Shown here in pieces: positions 13,041 through 24,271 of a DNA stretch of 24,789 nt. The notes beneath the pieces were generated by a model. That model saw only the letters and a list, made by a program, of their open reading frames with translations. It did not search any database and had not been told where the DNA came from. Position 1 is the stretch's first letter. Every line of letters starts with the position of its first letter. Source of the stretch: a virus. Location: IMG/VR virus record IMGVR_UViG_3300046007_006906, positions 1-24,789 of that record. One strand, given 5' to 3'. Position numbers and translations under genes: made by a program.

Positions 13041-13582
13041 GTCCAATAATTGATCTGCAGACATCTGCGCACCTGTTCAAACGTGGTGCGTGGGTAGCTG
13101 TGTATGGTATCAGCTGCCGGTACAAAAAAGAAACAACGATTGTCTTTGCTTTCTACCCGGGATCCATCCGACAATGCTGTGCCCGGATACAGTTGTTCAT
13201 GATCAGTGTAAATCAACGCAGTGAGTCGTTTTTCGGGTTGATCTGGATGTAGGTCAAGATAAAATTCTCCAATGTCGCTGACCACTTCCACACGCGGAAA
13301 CAATTTACTGTAATCAAGTCCGGTAAAATGTTCGAAGTATTGTCGATAAAAACCGTGATGTAGACTTTGCCAAAGCGCATAAAGATTGGGGTACACATCA
13401 CTGTGTTCGTGATTGATAAACAGGCGACCGCTGCCAACACGTCGACCAGGAATGTTTTGCGTGACATTGTGTTGCACAGACTTGAGTTCGCGCAAACAGT
13501 CTGCGGTTAGAAAATCATCCACGATCCAGTGACACCAGGGATCAAGTTTTTTCGCAGTAGTGGAGAAAAGTCTGTTGTGCAA
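13028..13582 (-). CDS. 2OG-Fe(II) oxygenase-like protein
   Basis: The C-terminal half shows the 2OG-Fe(II) dioxygenase pattern: FYLDLHPDQPEK with HxD, then TIHSYP as the distal His, then RRCLQINYWT whose Arg would bind 2-oxoglutarate. Such phage enzymes hydroxylate proteins, sugars or nucleobases; the substrate is unknown. The start is uncertain. ATGs at 13666, 13657 and 13651 would overlap the upstream asparagine synthetase gene by about 110-125 nt, so the TTG at 13582 (184 residues, 41-nt overlap) is listed. It is the last gene of a minus-strand operon. Confidence 0.6.
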   Translation of the reverse strand: MHNRLFSTTAKKLDPWCHWIVDDFLTADCLRELKSVQHNVTQNIPGRRVGSGRLFINHEHSDVYPNLYALWQSLHHGFYRQYFEHFTGLDYSKLFPRVEVVSDIGEFYLDLHPDQPEKRLTALIYTDHEQLYPGTALSDGSRVESKDNRCFFFVPAADTIHSYPRTTFEQVRRCLQINYWTYSL

Positions 13583-15029
13583 TTTGAATCCAATCTTGAT
13601 GGCGATCCCCAGTTGACTGAATTTCAACCGGTAACCATGCAGCACTGTCATTGGCATGACCTGCAAAACCCATTTTGGGCAAAATTTCTTTGTTGGGACG
13701 GCCGCGGCGCCATAGGTGTTTGAGCACAGGTTTGGACTCAGCAGCTACCTTGAGATGCCAAGGCAAATTCAGTGCAAACTTCATGACATGTTGGTGCATG
13801 AACGGGTTGCGTACTTCTATGCCCCAGGCACCGGCAATGCGATCTTGACCAGGTGCATCCATGCCCACGACCTGATACCAATAATCCATTAACAGTGTGG
13901 CCTGCCTGGCGTCACCGTGATAGCTGTCCAGGCACTGTGACCACAATTGGTCATGGTCGTTGCTGCTGTAGGGACTGTGGCTGCCGTGACTGTCATACAC
14001 AAGGTCACGATAGACATCATAGCCACCAAACAATTCATCAGCACCCAGTCCGGTAAAAAGCACTCGAGTGCCACAGGCCTTGGCCACTGCCCATTTACCC
14101 ACAAAACTCCATGACTGTGCTGGCATGCGTGTGTTGGACACAAGCTCTTGATACAATTGAGCCCACTGTTTGGGACCAATGTCAATCATGGTCAGCTTGA
14201 TGAGTTGACTGGACGACAGATATTCACGGGCACAAGTGACCACAGGATCCTTGCCTGTCATGTTGATGGCCACAAGTTCAAGATCAGGCATGGCATCTAG
14301 AATCACAGTGCTGTCAACCCCGGCACTGTAACTGAGTGAAGCAGCACAGTTGGGTTGGATTTCGCGGCACACTTGACGCCATATGCTATCAAATTCTTCC
14401 TGTGCTTGTGCTGGAGTCATGTGGTTGGGCCTGATCCAGGACCACACAGAATCTATGGTGATCTGAGCCACACCGTCGCGATAGAGTTGGCCTGGTGTTA
14501 TTCTCTCAATGCCATGCCAAGGCGTTTTACTCAGCAGAGTCCAGCACTTGTTGGCATAGAGCACCGAGTCAACACGTGGTTGTATGTAGGCTAGAATTGC
14601 AGTGACTTCGCTGGACACAATCAAGATATCTTGATCCTGATACTGATACAGCACACGTTCACCTTGCGGATCAGTAGCATAGGTAAATGATCCGCTGTTG
14701 TACAACGCCCAGGCCCAGGGTCCGGTGAAATCTCTAAAGCGATACAAATCGTCGCGAGCAGCCTGGTATGCCACATCAATGTCACTAGCAGCAGGTCCAA
14801 ACTGTTGGTAGTTGTAGATTTCGCCGTTGAAGGCAAAGAAGTCGTCGCGATGAGTGTGATAGAAACTGTCACTGCCTGTGATGTGCAACACTGTTTGCGC
14901 AATGAATGTGCGATCAGTGTAGTGATATCTGGAAAAATCAGGACCGCGTGATTTTATGGTTTCCAGTGCCTCAAGATGTTTGGTCAATGCAATTGGCTGT
15001 TTGCTACGGACCAACAGTATTCCACACAT
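13542..15029 (-). CDS. asnB: Asparagine synthetase (glutamine-hydrolysing)
   Basis: 495 residues starting at MCGILLV, the required N-terminal Cys of class II glutamine amidotransferases. The longer frame back to 15209 would bury this Cys and overlap the upstream gene by 180 nt. The amidotransferase half has SRGPD and FNGEIYNY. The synthetase half has the ATP-pyrophosphatase loop SYSAGVDST (the family usually has SGGxDS, so one Gly is Ala), LFTGLGADELFGGY, and EVRNPFMHQH. It makes asparagine, or amidates another carboxylate; homologues in capsule and O-antigen loci are thought to amidate sugars, which fits the glycosyltransferase-like gene directly upstream (TAATG overlap). Confidence 0.88.
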   Translation of the reverse strand: MCGILLVRSKQPIALTKHLEALETIKSRGPDFSRYHYTDRTFIAQTVLHITGSDSFYHTHRDDFFAFNGEIYNYQQFGPAASDIDVAYQAARDDLYRFRDFTGPWAWALYNSGSFTYATDPQGERVLYQYQDQDILIVSSEVTAILAYIQPRVDSVLYANKCWTLLSKTPWHGIERITPGQLYRDGVAQITIDSVWSWIRPNHMTPAQAQEEFDSIWRQVCREIQPNCAASLSYSAGVDSTVILDAMPDLELVAINMTGKDPVVTCAREYLSSSQLIKLTMIDIGPKQWAQLYQELVSNTRMPAQSWSFVGKWAVAKACGTRVLFTGLGADELFGGYDVYRDLVYDSHGSHSPYSSNDHDQLWSQCLDSYHGDARQATLLMDYWYQVVGMDAPGQDRIAGAWGIEVRNPFMHQHVMKFALNLPWHLKVAAESKPVLKHLWRRGRPNKEILPKMGFAGHANDSAAWLPVEIQSTGDRHQDWIQIAQQTFLHYCEKT

Positions 15030-16024
15030 TATGCAGTGACCTCTTGATAGTGCAGCCACCACTGAGCCAGGTCGTGTGGCCATTGCCGTTTCATGGTGGC
15101 CAGCAGTTGTTGATTGTGTTGGGCTGCTGCCTCCACACGTGATTTTTGTATCACACTTTGAGCTGTGCGTTGAGCGCATTGACCAAATTTGGCAATCTTG
15201 GCGTTCCAATCAGTTTCCTGATCATAGCTGTGATCCACTACATCGTCTAGAACATCAAATCCTAGATTACGAAGAAATTTCACTGATCCGCGTCCAGCAT
15301 ATATCATCCAGGGTGCGGGTGTTTGCACAGCACGCCAGGTTTTTTCACTTAAAGCCACGATGTCAGGTCCAGCATAGGTTTCAACAACAATGTTTACCTG
15401 CACTGATGCATGCACCTGTTCCAGAGTTAGATTATGATTGCGCACAGGCATGATATTGGCCCAGTAATCAAACCGGGCATGATCAACCTCCTCGCGGTAC
15501 TTGAGGAAATTTTCTCTCAGTTGGTCAGGGCCAACGTTGCGGTGATCGTGCAGCAGGCAATTGACATTTACCAAATCTCGTTCAATGTCCGCGATCTCAC
15601 ACAGCAACCGGATACGCAATGGATCAATGCGATTCACACAGAAACCAAATCTGTGGGTGGGCTGCCAGTCCCGGATACTGGGCTCATAGGCAAATGTACC
15701 AAAGAAACTGTCGGGCAGTCGCACTATCTCATAGGGAACCTCGGCCCAGCACCAGTTATCGGTGATCACTGTGGTGTCAGCAGCAAACAATGCAGCAGTG
15801 GATTGGCTAGTGTCACCGCAGGTGAAAAAATCGTCTACCAGGCACTGAATGATCTGGCGCGACCCGCGTGTCCAAATTTTGTGCAAAGGGTGATGTCCAG
15901 TGTAACCTTGCTGCTGCATGTACTGAGCCATGCGTTCCATGAGTGCATTTTCCTGATCAATACAGCAAGTTTTTTGGAAAATCTCTCCCTGATATACATC
16001 TTTGAAACTGATTGTCATTGCCAT
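15029..16024 (-). CDS. Glycosyltransferase-like protein, paralogue B
   Basis: 331 residues; M1 and M3 are both possible starts. The C-terminal region has VNIVVETYAGPDIVALSEKT, WMIYAGRG and LRNLGFDVLDDVVDHSYDQE, clearly related to the protein at 11192-12304 (EKT, LRDLGFDVFDDIIDHSYE). The order fits a GT-B-like donor domain, here inferred. The N-terminal part differs between the copies, suggesting different acceptors. A TATAAT-type -10 lies about 30 nt upstream on the minus strand. It is coupled to asnB by a TAATG overlap. Confidence 0.6.
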   Translation of the reverse strand: MAMTISFKDVYQGEIFQKTCCIDQENALMERMAQYMQQQGYTGHHPLHKIWTRGSRQIIQCLVDDFFTCGDTSQSTAALFAADTTVITDNWCWAEVPYEIVRLPDSFFGTFAYEPSIRDWQPTHRFGFCVNRIDPLRIRLLCEIADIERDLVNVNCLLHDHRNVGPDQLRENFLKYREEVDHARFDYWANIMPVRNHNLTLEQVHASVQVNIVVETYAGPDIVALSEKTWRAVQTPAPWMIYAGRGSVKFLRNLGFDVLDDVVDHSYDQETDWNAKIAKFGQCAQRTAQSVIQKSRVEAAAQHNQQLLATMKRQWPHDLAQWWLHYQEVTA

Positions 16025-17499: not shown

Positions 17500-17576
17500 G
17501 GGCCGGAAGCATTTTAGGTATATGCGTCCGACTCATAATCGGGGGATAGAGAGTTCGAATCTCTCCCGGCCCACCA
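17500..17576 (+). tRNA. tRNA with CAT anticodon, probably tRNA-Ile2
   Basis: The cloverleaf was traced by hand: acceptor GGGCCGG (17500-17506) with CCGGCCC (17566-17572); D stem GCAT/ATGC; anticodon stem TCCGA/TCGGG with loop CTCATAA, so anticodon CAT at 17534-17536; a 5-nt variable loop; T stem GAGAG/CTCTC with loop TTCGAAT; discriminator A and an encoded CCA. CAT could be Met or lysidine-modified Ile2. Acceptor pairs C4-G69 and C5-G68 resemble E. coli tRNA-Ile2 rather than elongator Met, favouring Ile2 (AUA codons). Position 8 is A instead of the usual T. Confidence 0.9.
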
Positions 17577-18262: not shown

Positions 18263-18337
18263 CTGGCGTTCGTTCAACGGATAGGACATGGGTCTTCTAA
18301 ACCCAGAATGGGGGTTCGATTCCCTCACGCCGGACCA
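18263..18337 (+). tRNA. tRNA-Arg (TCT)
   Basis: Acceptor CTGGCGT (18263-18269) pairs with ACGCCGG (18327-18333) with one G-T pair; D stem GTTC/GGAC; anticodon stem TGGGT/ACCCA around CTTCTAA, so anticodon TCT at 18296-18298; T stem GGGGG/CCCTC with loop TTCGATT; discriminator A and encoded CCA to 18337. It reads AGA arginine codons, which T4-like phages often supply for themselves. A C at position 1 is slightly unusual. Confidence 0.9.
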
Positions 18338-19235: not shown

Positions 19236-19487
19236 ATGAAAATTTTGAAATTCTATGCAGATTGGTGTGCGCCCTGTCGATCACTCAGTGACACAGTTGA
19301 ATCAGTGCGTGATCAAATTGCTCTAGCAGTGGACGAGATCAACATTGACACTGACAGTGCTCGTGCTGTGCAATACAATGTGAGAGCAGTGCCCACAATG
19401 ATCATTGTGGACGACAGCGACACAGAAATTAGACGCCACAGCGGGCACATGACCGCTGATGAATTGTTGCGTTTTGTACGAGTATGA
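19236..19487 (+). CDS. Thioredoxin-like protein
   Basis: 83 residues with the thioredoxin active site in FYADWCAPCRSL (CAPC in place of the usual CGPC) and the cis-proline in YNVRAVPTMIIV. It is shorter than E. coli thioredoxin (about 108), as phage forms often are. It would reduce disulfides in the cytoplasm, for example of a ribonucleotide reductase, though none is in the window. A short membrane ORF begins at its stop. Confidence 0.85.
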   Translation: MKILKFYADWCAPCRSLSDTVESVRDQIALAVDEINIDTDSARAVQYNVRAVPTMIIVDDSDTEIRRHSGHMTADELLRFVRV

Positions 19488-19579
19488 TCGAGGGCATGAT
19501 GAGTTATAAAATTGGCGAAGCAATATATTGGGGTCTGGTAGCAGTGTTTATTGCTACTGTAGTGATACTGACTCTGTAA
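19484..19579 (+). CDS. 31-residue single-pass membrane protein
   Basis: The ATG at 19484 overlaps the thioredoxin stop (ATGA). The product is MIEGMMSYKIGEAIYW followed by a hydrophobic run (GLVAVFIATVVILTL) to the stop, so one membrane helix is expected. Alternative ATGs at 19496 and 19499 would shorten it to 27 or 26 residues. It is too short for homology-based naming; coupling and composition support it, but it may not be expressed. Confidence 0.45.
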   Translation: MIEGMMSYKIGEAIYWGLVAVFIATVVILTL

Positions 19580-19878
19580 GTTATTGTTGTATGAAGTAGA
19601 ATGAAAGGTGTTCTGGACGCGGGTTCGACTCCCGCCTGGTCCACCAAAAGCATATTCTTTGAGGTCTTGGTCGTTACCTGCGTAGCAAAAACGACGACAG
19701 AATGTGCTTTTGATGGGCCAGACATGGTTTCGACAGGGTGACGAGTAAGGATATGGACAACACGGTAGGCGATGACCGTAAATCAAGCAAAACCAATAAC
19801 TGCAAACGCAGCTAACGACGAGGTTTTCGCTCTTGCAGCGTGATCTCCGGGGTTGACTACCTTGTAACCCAACAGTCT
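19580..19878 (+). ncRNA. ssrA: Circularly permuted (two-piece) tmRNA
   Basis: The gene order is reversed relative to a normal tmRNA. First comes the acceptor piece: T arm GCGGG/CCCGC with loop TTCGACT (19619-19635), then CTGGTCC, A and CCA (ending 19646). After 68 nt comes the coding piece: GGGCCAG (19715-19721) pairs with CTGGTCC as a 7-bp acceptor stem, then the GGTTTCGACAGGG region. The tag frame at 19802-19843 encodes ANAANDEVFALAA then TGA, an ALAA-type degradation tag recognised by ClpXP. The intervening segment can fold (AAAGCATATTCT with AGAATGTGCTTT; GTCGTT with AACGAC), bringing both processing sites together. The outer ends are approximate and helix 2 could not be traced with confidence. 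Permuted genes are known in alphaproteobacteria, some cyanobacteria and some betaproteobacteria. Confidence 0.9.
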
Positions 19879-19904
19879 AAATGGCACCTTCGGGTGCCAT
19901 TTTC
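19879..19904 (+). terminator. Rho-independent terminator after tmRNA
   Basis: A 10-bp perfect stem, AAATGGCACC with GGTGCCATTT, around the stable tetraloop TTCG, followed by a short T run and C. It closes the tmRNA transcript. Confidence 0.85.
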
Positions 19905-19905
19905 G

Positions 19906-19913
19906 CTTAAATA
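19906..19913 (+). promoter_or_regulatory. Late-like promoter motif
   Basis: CTTAAATA lies directly after the tmRNA terminator and 20 nt before the ATG at 19934. It matches the T4 late consensus at 6 of 8 bases. Confidence 0.35.
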
Positions 19914-19933
19914 CTGGGTATATCAAAGTCACA

Positions 19934-20566
19934 ATGCCCACCATAGCTCTATTCATGCACCAACCGTACTGTAACGTACAGAGCGGCAACGGTATCATGC
20001 AGGCTCTTTATCCCCAGTACAGATTCAAAATTTTTCCCCGTCAAGAAATTGAAGCTGATTTTTTTGACGATGTGGACATTGTGTGCTTTCCGGGCGGCAC
20101 TGGCGACAGTGACAGCTTTGACAGTGTGATGCGACATAACCGCAGACTGGTCATGCGTTACCTGCGCCAGGGCGGCAGATATCTTGGCATCTGCATGGGT
20201 GCATACTGGGCAGATCAAGACTACTTCAACATCATGAACGGTGTTCGTGTGGTGCAGTACATCAAGCAGCCGGGCACAGACACTCGTAGACCACATGCCA
20301 AGCACATGCCCATATGGTGGGACAACACTGCCACTGGTATGTATTTTTACGACGGATGTACTTTCAGTGCCGGCAACTACACCACAGTGGCAAGATATGC
20401 CACAGGCTGGCCCATGGCCATTATTCAAGGTCGCGTGGGACTGATAGGATGTCATCCCGAAGCGCAACGATTTTGGTATGATGAATACTCTTGGCTGCAG
20501 CGACATTGGTCGGGCGGTCAGCAACATCTGTTGCAGCAATTTGTACAAACGCTCATGGAGGCATAG
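19934..20566 (+). CDS. Class I amidotransferase-like (BPL_N-type) protein
   Basis: 210 residues with a DJ-1/GATase1 fold. CFPGGTGDSDSF near residue 52 is followed by the nucleophile elbow LGICMGAYWA (Cys near residue 86) and a late GCHPEAQRFWY supplying His and Glu. The order and the YWADQDYF tail of the elbow resemble the biotin-protein-ligase N-terminal (BPL_N) group, whose function is unknown. It lacks an acceptor domain, so it may hydrolyse a small amide or act as a subunit. It is the first gene after the tmRNA terminator and is followed immediately by a small exported protein. Confidence 0.7.
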   Translation: MPTIALFMHQPYCNVQSGNGIMQALYPQYRFKIFPRQEIEADFFDDVDIVCFPGGTGDSDSFDSVMRHNRRLVMRYLRQGGRYLGICMGAYWADQDYFNIMNGVRVVQYIKQPGTDTRRPHAKHMPIWWDNTATGMYFYDGCTFSAGNYTTVARYATGWPMAIIQGRVGLIGCHPEAQRFWYDEYSWLQRHWSGGQQHLLQQFVQTLMEA

Positions 20567-20862: not shown

Positions 20863-21888
20863 GTGCGTAAATTACTTGCAATGACTCTGCTGGCAGCAGC
20901 AGGTCTGGTGTCAGCAGCAGAATTCACCGGCGCTGGTGCTACATTTCCATTTCCAATCTACAGCAAGTGGGCCGAAGCATACAAAGCCCAAACCGGAATT
21001 GGTCTTAATTATCAAAGCATCGGCTCCGGCGGCGGCATCCGTCAAATCAAGGCCAAGACAGTGGACTTTGGCGCCAGCGACATGCCCTTGAAAAAAGACG
21101 AGCTTGACAAAGAAGGTTTGGTACAGTTTCCCGCTATCATAGGTGGCGTAGTGCCTGTGTTCAATCTTGATGGTGTTGACACCAACAAGTTGAAACTCAC
21201 CCCAGATGTTGTTGCTAATATTCATTTAGGCAAGATTACCAAGTGGAATGACAAGGCAATCACAGAACTTAACCCAGGAGTCGCGCTTCCTGCCGTCAAC
21301 ATCACCGTTGTTCATCGTGCAGATGGTTCAGGAACCACATTTATTTGGACCAACTTCTTGGGCAAGGCCAATGCTGACTTCCAAAAGACAGTGGGTGAAG
21401 GTTCAGCTGTTAAGTGGCCAACCGGTGTAGGCGGTAAGGGCAACGAAGGTGTTGCAGCACAGGTTCAGCGTATCAAAGGTGCCTTTGGTTATGTAGAATA
21501 TGCCTATGCCAAGCGTAACAAGATTCCTTATGCTGTGTTAAAGAATCGTGATGGCAACTTTGTGTCACCTGACGACTCAACATTCAAGGCAGCAGCAGCC
21601 AATGCTGACTGGGCCAATGCTCCTGGCTTCTATCAACTGTTGACTTGGCAACCAGGCCGAGATGCTTGGCCAGCCACAGGCGCCAGCTTCATTCTCATGC
21701 ACAAGCAACAGGCAGATGCACTGACAGGTCGTGCAGTTCTCAAGTTCTTTGACTGGTCATACAAGAACGGTGGTCAAATGGCCACTGAATTAGAATATGT
21801 TCACATGCCGGCCGACGTGATCAAACTGGTGCAGGACAACTGGAAGAAAGAGTTCCGTGGCCCTGACGGTAACCCAATCTGGAAGTAA
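20863..21888 (+). CDS. pstS: Phosphate ABC transporter substrate-binding protein PstS
   Basis: 341 residues from a GTG with AGGAGG 5 nt upstream. A signal peptide (RKLLAMTLLAAAGLVSA, cut near residue 18-19) precedes the PstS start FTGAGATFPFPIYSKW. Phosphate-binding loops are YQSIGSGGGIRQI, DFGASDMPL and HRADGSGTTFIW. It captures phosphate in the periplasm and hands it to the host PstCAB permease, none of which is encoded here. PstS in T4-like cyanophages is under host PhoB control, and a PhoB-like box lies upstream of this copy too. The transcript ends at a hairpin that also holds the porin promoter. Confidence 0.96.
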   Translation: MRKLLAMTLLAAAGLVSAAEFTGAGATFPFPIYSKWAEAYKAQTGIGLNYQSIGSGGGIRQIKAKTVDFGASDMPLKKDELDKEGLVQFPAIIGGVVPVFNLDGVDTNKLKLTPDVVANIHLGKITKWNDKAITELNPGVALPAVNITVVHRADGSGTTFIWTNFLGKANADFQKTVGEGSAVKWPTGVGGKGNEGVAAQVQRIKGAFGYVEYAYAKRNKIPYAVLKNRDGNFVSPDDSTFKAAAANADWANAPGFYQLLTWQPGRDAWPATGASFILMHKQQADALTGRAVLKFFDWSYKNGGQMATELEYVHMPADVIKLVQDNWKKEFRGPDGNPIWK

Positions 21889-21893
21889 TCAAC

Positions 21894-21922
21894 TTGACAA
21901 CCGTTGGCATTTTCCATATAAT
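21894..21922 (+). promoter_or_regulatory. Perfect sigma70 promoter for porin
   Basis: TTGACA at 21894-21899 and TATAAT at 21917-21922 with a 17-nt spacer: full consensus. The spacer and -10 lie inside the pstS terminator hairpin. Transcription would start near 21929; GAGGA at about 21940-21944 precedes the ATG at 21949. Confidence 0.85.
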
Positions 21923-21938
21923 GCCAACGGTTATTTTA
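21899..21938 (+). terminator. Terminator hairpin of pstS
   Basis: A 13-bp perfect inverted repeat, AACCGTTGGCATT (21899-21911) and AATGCCAACGGTT (21920-21932), with an 8-nt loop, followed by ATTTTA. The T tract is interrupted, so termination may be partial. It overlaps the porin promoter. Confidence 0.65.
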
Positions 21939-21948
21939 TGAGGACACA

Positions 21949-23355
21949 ATGAAAACAATTACCAAATTAGCATTGGCCATTACCTTGGCCATGGCTGCTC
22001 CTGCTTATGCAGATGAATACATTGACACGCTGAACATCCTGCGGGACAAAGGTGTGTTGACTCAAAAAGAGTATGATGCCAAGATCCAAGCCTATGAAGA
22101 AAAAGCGGAGAACAAACGATTCGCAAATCAAAGGATTGACAAAGACGTCAGCGACTCAGTCAAGTACAGACAAGCTCGAGCCAACGACGGATCAGTCACA
22201 GAAAACGGACTGGGACTCAAGTCTAAAGATGGCAACAACACCGCACAATTTACAGGTCGAATTCACATGGACTATCGTCAGTACGACCCCGTTTATGGTG
22301 CAGGTCAAACCACGGATTCGTACCAGAACCTAGCCGAAGTTCGTCGCGCTAGATTTGGTGTGCGTGGTCAATTTGCCAAGGATTTCAAGTATCAATTGCT
22401 TGCCAACTTTGGTAATGATGTCGGTGCTTCATCAACATCAACTACCATGGACGAGATGTGGGTCAATTACGCTGCCAATCCTGAAATGCAATTTCAGCTT
22501 GGCTTGTTCAAGATGCCATTCAGCCTAGAACAGTTGACCAGTTCAAACAATCTAGACTTCATGGAACGCAGCCTAGTTGGTCAAAATGACAGTGAATTAA
22601 TTCCTGCAAAAGAAACCGGTTTCATGGTTCATGGCGTACCCAAACCTGGTTTCACATATCAACTGGCAGCCAGCCGCGGTCGTGGCAACAAAGATGCTGT
22701 CAATGACAACTTTGACTACATTGGTCGTGTCACAACCAACATTGCCGAACTTGCGGGCAACAAAGAAGTCATAGCACACATAGGCGCGGCATACAGTGTG
22801 GGCACAATCAAGGGCGGTGTCACTCCAGCCAGTGGTCGTACCGAAGCTAGAACACAAAGTGCATGGTTCACAGGTCCTGCACTCAGTGGCAACACTGAAA
22901 GAACTCGTGCTGGTGCTGAACTAGCACTGGCATACCAGGCCGCCAAAGTGCAAGGTGAATACTTTGACTTCACATATGACCCTGCCACAGGCAGCAATCA
23001 AAAAATCCGCGGTTATTATGTTCAGGCAGTGTACAATCTCACCGGCGAAAACCATGTGTACAAAGATGGCGTGTTCAATTGGGTCAAGCCCAACAATGCC
23101 ATCGACAAAGGTGGACGCGGCGCATGGCAAGTTGGCATTCGTGCCAGCGAGTTTGACGCCAGCGATATCACTGTTGCCACAGGTAAAAGCAATCGTGCCA
23201 CAGCAATGACATACGGTCTAACTTGGTTTGCCACAGACAACCTACGTTTCATGGTAAACTATGTTGACACCAAGTTTGATTCCCTGGTAGGGAGCTCAGG
23301 CAGTCGTGTGAACGGCGATCGTGCAGTGATGTTTAGAAGCCAATTGAGTTTCTAA
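21949..23355 (+). CDS. Outer-membrane phosphate-selective porin (OprO/OprP type)
   Basis: 468 residues. A signal peptide (MKTITKLALAITLAMAAPAYA) is followed by a short helical region (YIDTLNILRDKGVLTQKEYDAK and a Lys/Glu coiled stretch to about residue 65). A beta-barrel follows, with alternating strands such as AQFTGRIHMDYRQY and RRARFGVRGQF, ending in the terminal aromatic FRSQLSF that the BAM machinery recognises. The pattern LGLFKMPFSLEQLTSSNNLDFMERS matches the OprO/OprP family, which channels phosphate or polyphosphate. It would let phosphate enter the periplasm for PstS. It has its own consensus promoter and a clean terminator. Phage-encoded porins are rare. Phosphate specificity is inferred from family and context. 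Confidence 0.9.
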   Translation: MKTITKLALAITLAMAAPAYADEYIDTLNILRDKGVLTQKEYDAKIQAYEEKAENKRFANQRIDKDVSDSVKYRQARANDGSVTENGLGLKSKDGNNTAQFTGRIHMDYRQYDPVYGAGQTTDSYQNLAEVRRARFGVRGQFAKDFKYQLLANFGNDVGASSTSTTMDEMWVNYAANPEMQFQLGLFKMPFSLEQLTSSNNLDFMERSLVGQNDSELIPAKETGFMVHGVPKPGFTYQLAASRGRGNKDAVNDNFDYIGRVTTNIAELAGNKEVIAHIGAAYSVGTIKGGVTPASGRTEARTQSAWFTGPALSGNTERTRAGAELALAYQAAKVQGEYFDFTYDPATGSNQKIRGYYVQAVYNLTGENHVYKDGVFNWVKPNNAIDKGGRGAWQVGIRASEFDASDITVATGKSNRATAMTYGLTWFATDNLRFMVNYVDTKFDSLVGSSGSRVNGDRAVMFRSQLSF

Positions 23356-23370
23356 GTCGCACTGACTCAA

Positions 23371-23395
23371 AAAAAGGCACTGCGGTGCCTTTTTT
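23371..23395 (+). terminator. Rho-independent terminator after porin
   Basis: A 10-bp stem AAAAAGGCAC/GTGCCTTTTT around the loop TGCG, ending in a run of T. It separates the porin unit from the next Pho box. Confidence 0.9.
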
Positions 23396-23401
23396 CATGG
23401 C

Positions 23402-23437
23402 TGTAACAAAACGGTAACACGGGTTCTCTTAAATAAT
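23402..23437 (+). promoter_or_regulatory. PhoB-like box and promoter for plcP-like gene
   Basis: TGTAACA at 23402-23408 and GGTAACA at 23413-23419 are 11 nt apart, then 10 nt to TAAATAAT at 23430-23437. This repeats the pstS promoter geometry. CTTAAATA at 23428-23435 overlaps and resembles a late motif. The ATG at 23441 leaves almost no leader if the -10 is used, which raises the possibility of leaderless translation. Confidence 0.65.
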
Positions 23438-23440
23438 GTT

Positions 23441-24271
23441 ATGTCTAGAGACTATCGCAGTATTTTTATCAGTGATGTTCATCTTGGAACCAAAGACTGC
23501 AAGGCCGACGCCTTGAATAATTTTTTAAAAAATCACACCTGCGAATACCTTTACCTAGTGGGCGACATCATTGACGGTTGGAAAATCAAACAAAACAAGT
23601 GGCGGTGGAAGCAGAGTCATACCAATGTGGTACGAAGAATACTGGGACACGCCAAGCGTGACACCAGGGTGATATATGTCTTGGGCAACCATGATGAATT
23701 CTTGAGACCGTTTTTGCAGTACAATTTAAACTTTGGTCGAGTAGAACTTCACAATCAAATTGAGCACATTGGTGCTGATGGCAAACATTATCTAGTGGTA
23801 CATGGAGACCTGTTCGATGGTATCACCAGACTGGCTCCCTGGCTGAATTTTTTGGGAGATCGGGCTTATGATTTTATCCTATCAGTTAATAATAGATTTA
23901 ATTGGTTCCTACATAGAATGGGTTTTGGTTATTGGAGCCTATCTGGTTTCCTTAAGCACAAGGTAAAACGAGCCGTGGACTTTGTGTTTCAATTTGAACG
24001 TAATCTTGCGGGTTACTGTAAGAAACGCGGCTTTGATGGTGTGATCTGTGGACACATACATCACGCAGAGATCAAGCAGATTGACGGAGTCACATACATG
24101 AATGACGGCGACTGGGTAGAAAGCTGTACTGCACTGGTCGAAAACCACAACGGCGAGTGGTCAGTAGTGACATGGACACGGGAGAAGGATCATGTGGTTG
24201 ATGATATTGATAGCAGTCCACACAAACGATCCACGAGACATACCGGCTCGAGTGACCTTGCAATTTCCTGA
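23441..24271 (+). CDS. plcP: PlcP-type metallophosphoesterase (phospholipase C candidate)
   Basis: A 276-residue calcineurin-like phosphoesterase: SDVHLG (Asp12, His14), GDIIDGW (Asp42), GNHDE (Asn83, His84), HGD (His121), and GHIHH (His205, His207), the full two-metal site. GNHDE replaces the GNRD of E. coli LpxH. The central WLNFLGDRAYDF, FGYWSLSGFLKHKVK and GDWVESC segments match my memory of the alphaproteobacterial PlcP group often annotated as UDP-2,3-diacylglucosamine hydrolase. PlcP removes head groups from membrane phospholipids during phosphate starvation, freeing phosphate and leaving diacylglycerol. A PhoB-like box upstream and a glycosyltransferase downstream fit that role. Other substrates are possible. 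Confidence 0.75.
   Translation: MSRDYRSIFISDVHLGTKDCKADALNNFLKNHTCEYLYLVGDIIDGWKIKQNKWRWKQSHTNVVRRILGHAKRDTRVIYVLGNHDEFLRPFLQYNLNFGRVELHNQIEHIGADGKHYLVVHGDLFDGITRLAPWLNFLGDRAYDFILSVNNRFNWFLHRMGFGYWSLSGFLKHKVKRAVDFVFQFERNLAGYCKKRGFDGVICGHIHHAEIKQIDGVTYMNDGDWVESCTALVENHNGEWSVVTWTREKDHVVDDIDSSPHKRSTRHTGSSDLAIS

Follow-up and report, generated by a model that had tools for sequence, protein, structure and literature searches.

An intact, probably functional circularly permuted tmRNA of the beta type with an extended tag on a phage record

The window analysed here is a linear IMG/VR record of 24,789 bases, taken as a whole, and it carries an intact circularly permuted tmRNA gene at positions 19585-19902 of the plus strand, as found by ARAGORN and two Rfam models. 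A tmRNA releases ribosomes that have become stuck and marks their incomplete protein for degradation. Going by the sequence, we consider it very probable that this gene encodes a functional phage tmRNA of the beta type which acts in trans-translation during infection. The gene is real and intact and is probably functional; from it we infer the behaviour of RNA and protein that is described below.

Detection and parts of the gene

ARAGORN makes one call in the window, a permuted tmRNA at 19554-19934 with the tag ANAANDEVFALAA. The Rfam model RF01850 (beta_tmRNA) matches 19534-19905 with 134 bits (E=4e-41; the curated cut-off is 84 bits), and this score above the cut-off extends across the full model (positions 1-331), as expected of the beta type. 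The model RF04321 (tmRNA_permuted, cut-off 47 bits) matches 19585-19843 with 130.6 bits (E=1e-25). Furthermore, the 326-nt tmRNA folds better than 100 of 100 shuffled sequences (z = -3.3). The original prediction had described a permuted tmRNA with this tag at 19580-19904 on viral DNA, and had proposed ARAGORN and the permuted covariance models as a check. Both kinds of search match, the coordinates were accurate, and the window is indeed an IMG/VR virus record.

The T arm, the 3' strand of the acceptor stem and the CCA end are encoded before the GGGCCAG 5' half and the tag; this order, which had been read from the letters, is confirmed by ARAGORN, by the Rfam alignments and by the sequence itself. 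The helix P2 joins the two pieces, a pseudoknot lies upstream of the tag, and the tag frame opens at a GCA resume codon and ends in a stop after a hydrophobic AA end. The parts and neighbours of the gene are as follows.

17500-17576 (+): tRNA-Met (CAT), near the tmRNA; ARAGORN and Rfam
18263-18337 (+): tRNA-Arg (TCT), near the tmRNA; ARAGORN and Rfam
19236-19487 (+): small thioredoxin, upstream neighbour; PF00085, 58 bits
19585-19646 (+): acceptor piece (tRNA-like 3' part), including the 5' side of P2; 5' end approximate; ARAGORN, RF01850 and RF04321 alignments, sequence
19586-19590 (+): 5' strand of the inter-piece helix P2, GUUGU; pairs with 19757-19761
19619-19635 (+): T arm; sequence
19636-19642 (+): acceptor 3' strand, CTGGTCC; sequence
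19643-19646 (+): encoded ACCA, with CCA at 19644-19646; sequence
19647-19714 (+): intervening spacer, removal expected; helix, from the fold and from pairing across viral spacers
19715-19721 (+): acceptor 5' strand, GGGCCAG; 7/7 paired with 19636-19642, including G3.U70
19757-19761 (+): 3' strand of P2, ACAAC; covariation in viral copies
19763-19778 (+): pseudoknot-1 stem, CGGU (19763-19766) with ACCG (19775-19778); paired in the RF01850 and RF04321 alignments, with variants in relatives
19802-19843 (+): tag frame ANAANDEVFALAA and stop TGA, resume codon GCA at 19802; ARAGORN and codon-position differences
19879-19902 (+): 3' hairpin AAATGGCACC-TTCG-GGTGCCATTT, 10 bp, 100% complementary; part of the beta model
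19934-20566 (+): glutamine-amidotransferase-like (BPL_N) protein, downstream neighbour; domain match, kept in the viral relative L111

The 3' hairpin is a probable end of the RNA or intrinsic terminator, and was not called by the terminator-prediction rule that we applied to the window. The order of the tmRNA and the BPL_N-like gene is conserved in L111 (77% identity).

Pairing in the viral copies

The seven base pairs of the acceptor stem between the pieces had been predicted to be complete, and so they are, with 7/7 pairs in the window, one of them the G3.U70 wobble. This pair is the alanine identity pair, which is read by AlaRS. The stem is equally complete in 83/85 distinct viral copies, with changes on both sides at pairs 4, 5 and 6; G3.U70 is present in 83/85 and ACCA is encoded in 83/85. 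The exceptions appear to be parsing slips, and one of them, L194, pairs normally on direct reading. For P2 we counted the 43 distinct viral copies in which both sides can be read: the second pair is T-A in 20, C-G in 20 and mismatched in 3. The stem of pseudoknot 1 occurs in the relatives as CGGU/ACCG, CAGU/ACUG and GGGU/ACCC.

A helix within the spacer, linking both processing sites, had been foreseen as well. It is present as 12 pairs, including one G-U, between 19647-19658 and 19699-19710, within an inverted repeat with 23-nt arms (87% complementary), and it prolongs the acceptor stem, from which a 4x4 internal loop (ACCA/UGAU) separates it. The register of the helix is fixed: positions 2-11 are paired in 68-77 of 77 distinct viral spacers, with many standard pair types. 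Strands from the same spacer score 10.4 as opposed to 6.5 for mismatched partners, and none of 5000 permutations reached the observed mean. Enzymes of tRNA processing cleave permuted precursors, and the two resulting pieces are held by pairing (PMC11915505); in the permuted tmRNA of Hodgkinia the removal of a self-complementary spacer was seen directly by RNA-seq (PMC6581868). The spacer helix in the window is therefore an expected feature rather than a new one.

The acceptor stem, P2, pseudoknot 1 and the spacer helix are thus maintained by compensatory changes in related viral contigs. This bears on the idea that the phage carries a functionless copy of a host ssrA gene, in decay or picked up by accident. 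Phages sometimes do carry ssrA pieces from integration sites (PMC9004378), but the gene is complete and the covariation across a divergent phage clade largely refutes this explanation. Moreover, the phage copies form a group of their own, remote from the sampled beta copies, and a search for the tmRNA in a plasmid collection gave no match. We regard a decayed copy as extremely improbable.

The extended tag and the proposed function

The tag of the clade comprises 13 residues, ANAANDEV(F/Y)ALAA. The ANAANDE tag was found with the tmRNA 5' anchor in 17 viral contigs, and with the exact ATGGTTTCGAC 5' anchor in none of 84,980 species genomes of bacteria and archaea. Among 10 distinct relatives, the only residue change in the tag is F/Y at position 9, and the differences at codon positions 1/2/3, taken over all pairs, are 0/21/168; since the search pattern already included residues 1-7, the independent evidence consists of residues 8-13 and the synonymous codon choice. 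Selection seems to act on both the RNA and the tag peptide. Since the pairing is compensatory in related viral contigs and the tag varies at third positions, the gene looks functional and under selection. What appears to be new here, modestly, is a phage clade with its own extended tag, which did not turn up in any bacterial genome searched.

At the start of the tag, four codons, GCAAACGCAGCT (window 19802-19813), are invariant in 10/10 distinct relatives, third positions included, and later third positions vary. This suggests an RNA-level constraint that may be connected with the additional ANA. Around the resume codon, CUGC-AAAC-GCAG could form a small hairpin. Elsewhere among the viral permuted tmRNAs we see very long predicted tags of 23-33 residues, such as ANADTFDFSAMSFTGNTVRGAANESRFALAA and AKASTGEVTVSGKNVKFSARTVKAESFAV (L005, L012, L015, L019, L025, L039, L101, L181 and others), most of which recur in several contigs.

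The phage RNA could also be an inhibitor or decoy that mainly titrates host SmpB or charged alanine and turns host rescue off. Such a role has been suggested for the tag-less tmRNA of mycobacteriophage DS6A, and an RNA of this sort, with a tRNA-like domain, inhibits tmRNA (PMC4131195, PMC11915505). We looked at 19 related phage records (the 17 with the ANAANDE tag, L116 and L132), each of which carries exactly one permuted tmRNA above the cut-off. SmpB was found on none of these 19 incomplete records, which would fit a decoy, and the control search finds SmpB in 10 bacteria. However, the whole tag frame, its stop and the pseudoknot are kept and are under coding selection; a decoy is disfavoured because it would need neither tag frame nor pseudoknot, and we consider it quite improbable.

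Most likely, the phage keeps a working tmRNA, like its tRNAs, so that ribosomes continue to be recycled when the transcription and DNA of the host break down. Taking the known tmRNA pathway as a guide, we infer how transcription, processing, charging and tagging would serve the phage. A single precursor would be transcribed that contains the acceptor piece, the spacer and the coding piece. Host RNase P would cut before 19715 and 3' processing would reach the encoded CCA at 19644-19646, whereby the spacer would be lost; the spacer helix would keep both cut sites together, and the two pieces would remain joined via the acceptor stem and P2. The RNA would be charged by host AlaRS through G3.U70 and, with host SmpB and EF-Tu, would enter ribosomes stalled on broken mRNAs during infection. 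Ala-ANAANDEVFALAA would then be added and the ribosome released, and the tagged fragment would be passed via its LAA end to a host ClpXP-like protease.

The chief rival to this standard role is a changed fate of tagged proteins, brought about by the extended tag. The extension ANA+ANDEVFALAA could alter the choice of adaptor or protease (e.g. SspB-like binding), so that host quality control is re-tuned or the amino acids of host proteins are recycled. Both the length and the sequence of the tag are conserved within the phage clade, which fits this explanation, as does the absence of ANAANDE from the genomes named above, although that search demanded the exact anchor. Recycling has also been proposed for phage Melnitz (PMC9004378). 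On the other hand, the degron end is unchanged, because the C-terminal ANDEVFALAA is an ordinary tag that occurs alone in other phages. We consider an altered fate unlikely.

Phage, host and known systems

The genes of the window include QueD/QueE-like genes, nucleotide-sugar epimerases, a 5'-3' exonuclease, a MazG-like gene, a thioredoxin, a PstS-like gene and a phosphate-selective porin. When the whole window was compared with 50,697 phage records for near-identical sequence, no match resulted. On four long records that share the tag (85-223 kb) there is a T4-type gene for the capsid protein gp23 (about 330 bits), and the window may come from a T4-type phage as well. This class is taken from the tag-sharing relatives because the window is only a 24.8-kb linear fragment, and gp23 was not seen among those of its proteins that were scanned. 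A permuted tmRNA is present in 11/20 records that share the window exonuclease; a gp23 search on 11 records sharing this exonuclease gave no match, and the control search likewise gave none.

The window has numerous genes for metabolism and the envelope (porin O/P, PstS, glycosyltransferases) and few for the virion, which could suggest that it is a fragment of a bacterial chromosome and that the tmRNA is the bacterium's own. Against this, the window is an IMG/VR virus record with PHROG matches to QueD/QueE, a MazG-like protein, a phage exonuclease and a virion protein, the tag clade sits on records with gp23, and a search of genome_contigs did not turn up the ANAANDE tag. A chromosomal origin is therefore very improbable in our estimate.

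Two further features of the window may be mentioned. At 20863-24271 (+) lies a likely phosphate-scavenging cassette, in which a metallophosphoesterase accompanies a PstS-like binding protein (PHROG 5385, 212 bits) and a porin O/P selective for phosphate (PF07396, 165 bits); an outer-membrane phosphate porin borne by a phage looks unusual. At 13542-15209 (-), among glycan and queuosine-pathway genes, there is a protein resembling asparagine synthase that also contains a glutamine amidotransferase domain (PF00733, 68 bits; PHROG 16728, function not assigned).

Permuted tmRNAs had been called very unusual on phage genomes, a claim that is not supported. In the literature, 53 of 133 unique phage tmRNAs are two-piece, and 50 of these 53 come from marine or aquatic phages (PMC9004378); in the tmRNA database, 79 unique sequences are from phages and 11,946 genes are permuted (PMC11915505). 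With one strict pattern (T arm, CCA, 50-80 nt, ATGGTTTCGAC), IMG/VR yields 109 stretches, nearly all of which contain a permuted tmRNA according to ARAGORN. On the IMG/VR records of L162 (G602), L184 (G603) and L186 (G615) there are also second RF04321 matches, which are weak and do not reach the cut-off; these could stem from copies that have diverged or are fragmentary, or could be due to chance. Bacillus phage G was considered as a permuted relative and rejected: only the T arm matched, and the tmRNA there is standard, not permuted.

Beta-type permuted tmRNAs are also present, mostly unannotated, in the cultured Stenotrophomonas phages Mendera, Marzo and DLP_6 and in Xanthomonas phage XacN1. 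Stenotrophomonas and Xanthomonas are Gammaproteobacteria, and their own tmRNA is one-piece. A permuted tmRNA is unannotated in the public records of Xanthomonas phage X1 (L277), DLP_6 (L278), XacN1 (L279), QDWS359 (L281), Rb1 (L282) and Mendera (L276); in QDWS359 the region is annotated as a hypothetical protein on the opposite strand. A "Betaproteobacter-class" tmRNA was noted in the Marzo paper (PMC8928761).

In a tree built from 124 distinct mature sequences, copies with the ANAANDE tag cluster together and adjoin phage copies with tags of the ANDEVYALAA type, far from the sampled betaproteobacterial genes. This tree is a rough picture, since the alphaproteobacterial copies (L216-L244) were left out and the gene is short. 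The original prediction had taken the gene order as a hint at the host lineage. The permuted order and the beta type are weak evidence of the host, because the beta type occurs in phages of Gammaproteobacteria and the viral copies form a separate group. It is conceivable, if doubtful, that beta-type permuted tmRNAs are an old phage-borne lineage that crosses host classes, including hosts with a one-piece tmRNA, and that the 13-residue tag steers tagged proteins differently from the host tag.

In summary, a well-supported clade is added to the small published set of phage tmRNAs, and the permuted form and beta type prove to be no safe guide to the host. With its conserved, distinct tag, it is a testable question whether a phage tmRNA replaces that of the host or alters the fate of tagged proteins.

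Compared with known systems, the tmRNA in the window shares with the Rfam families beta_tmRNA, for the two-piece form in Betaproteobacteria, and tmRNA_permuted, which covers every permuted form, the gene order, the T arm, the 7-bp acceptor stem with G3.U70, P2, pseudoknot 1, the tag frame, the 3' hairpin and the spacer helix. It differs from the sampled beta bacteria in its 13-aa tag with the extra ANA, where ANDExxALAA (10 aa) is usual, in its location on a phage, and in an RF01850 score below that of the best bacterial members (up to 331 bits). Among the named bacteria in genome_contigs, only Advenella (Alcaligenaceae) shows this pattern of T arm, CCA, spacer and 5' half; its ssrA is likewise permuted with a spacer, but has the tag ANDESYALAA and lies far from the phage copies in the tree. 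Methylophilales phage Melnitz and the pelagimyophages are aquatic phages that also have permuted tmRNAs; the tmRNA of Melnitz, however, groups with the alphaproteobacterial type, and a glutamine riboswitch is predicted to overlap it (PMC9004378), whereas that of the window is beta-type and Rfam reports no riboswitch family in the window. Further parallels are Mendera, Marzo, DLP_6 and XacN1, of which Mendera and Marzo are described as T4-like: their permuted tmRNAs are beta-type as well, but carry other tags (VAANDDSYTVRIAA, ANDDSFAPMAIAA, ANANTFDYALAA), and their identity to the window tmRNA is about 69-80% over parts only (Mendera, Marzo, DLP_6) or 83% over a 60-nt piece (XacN1).
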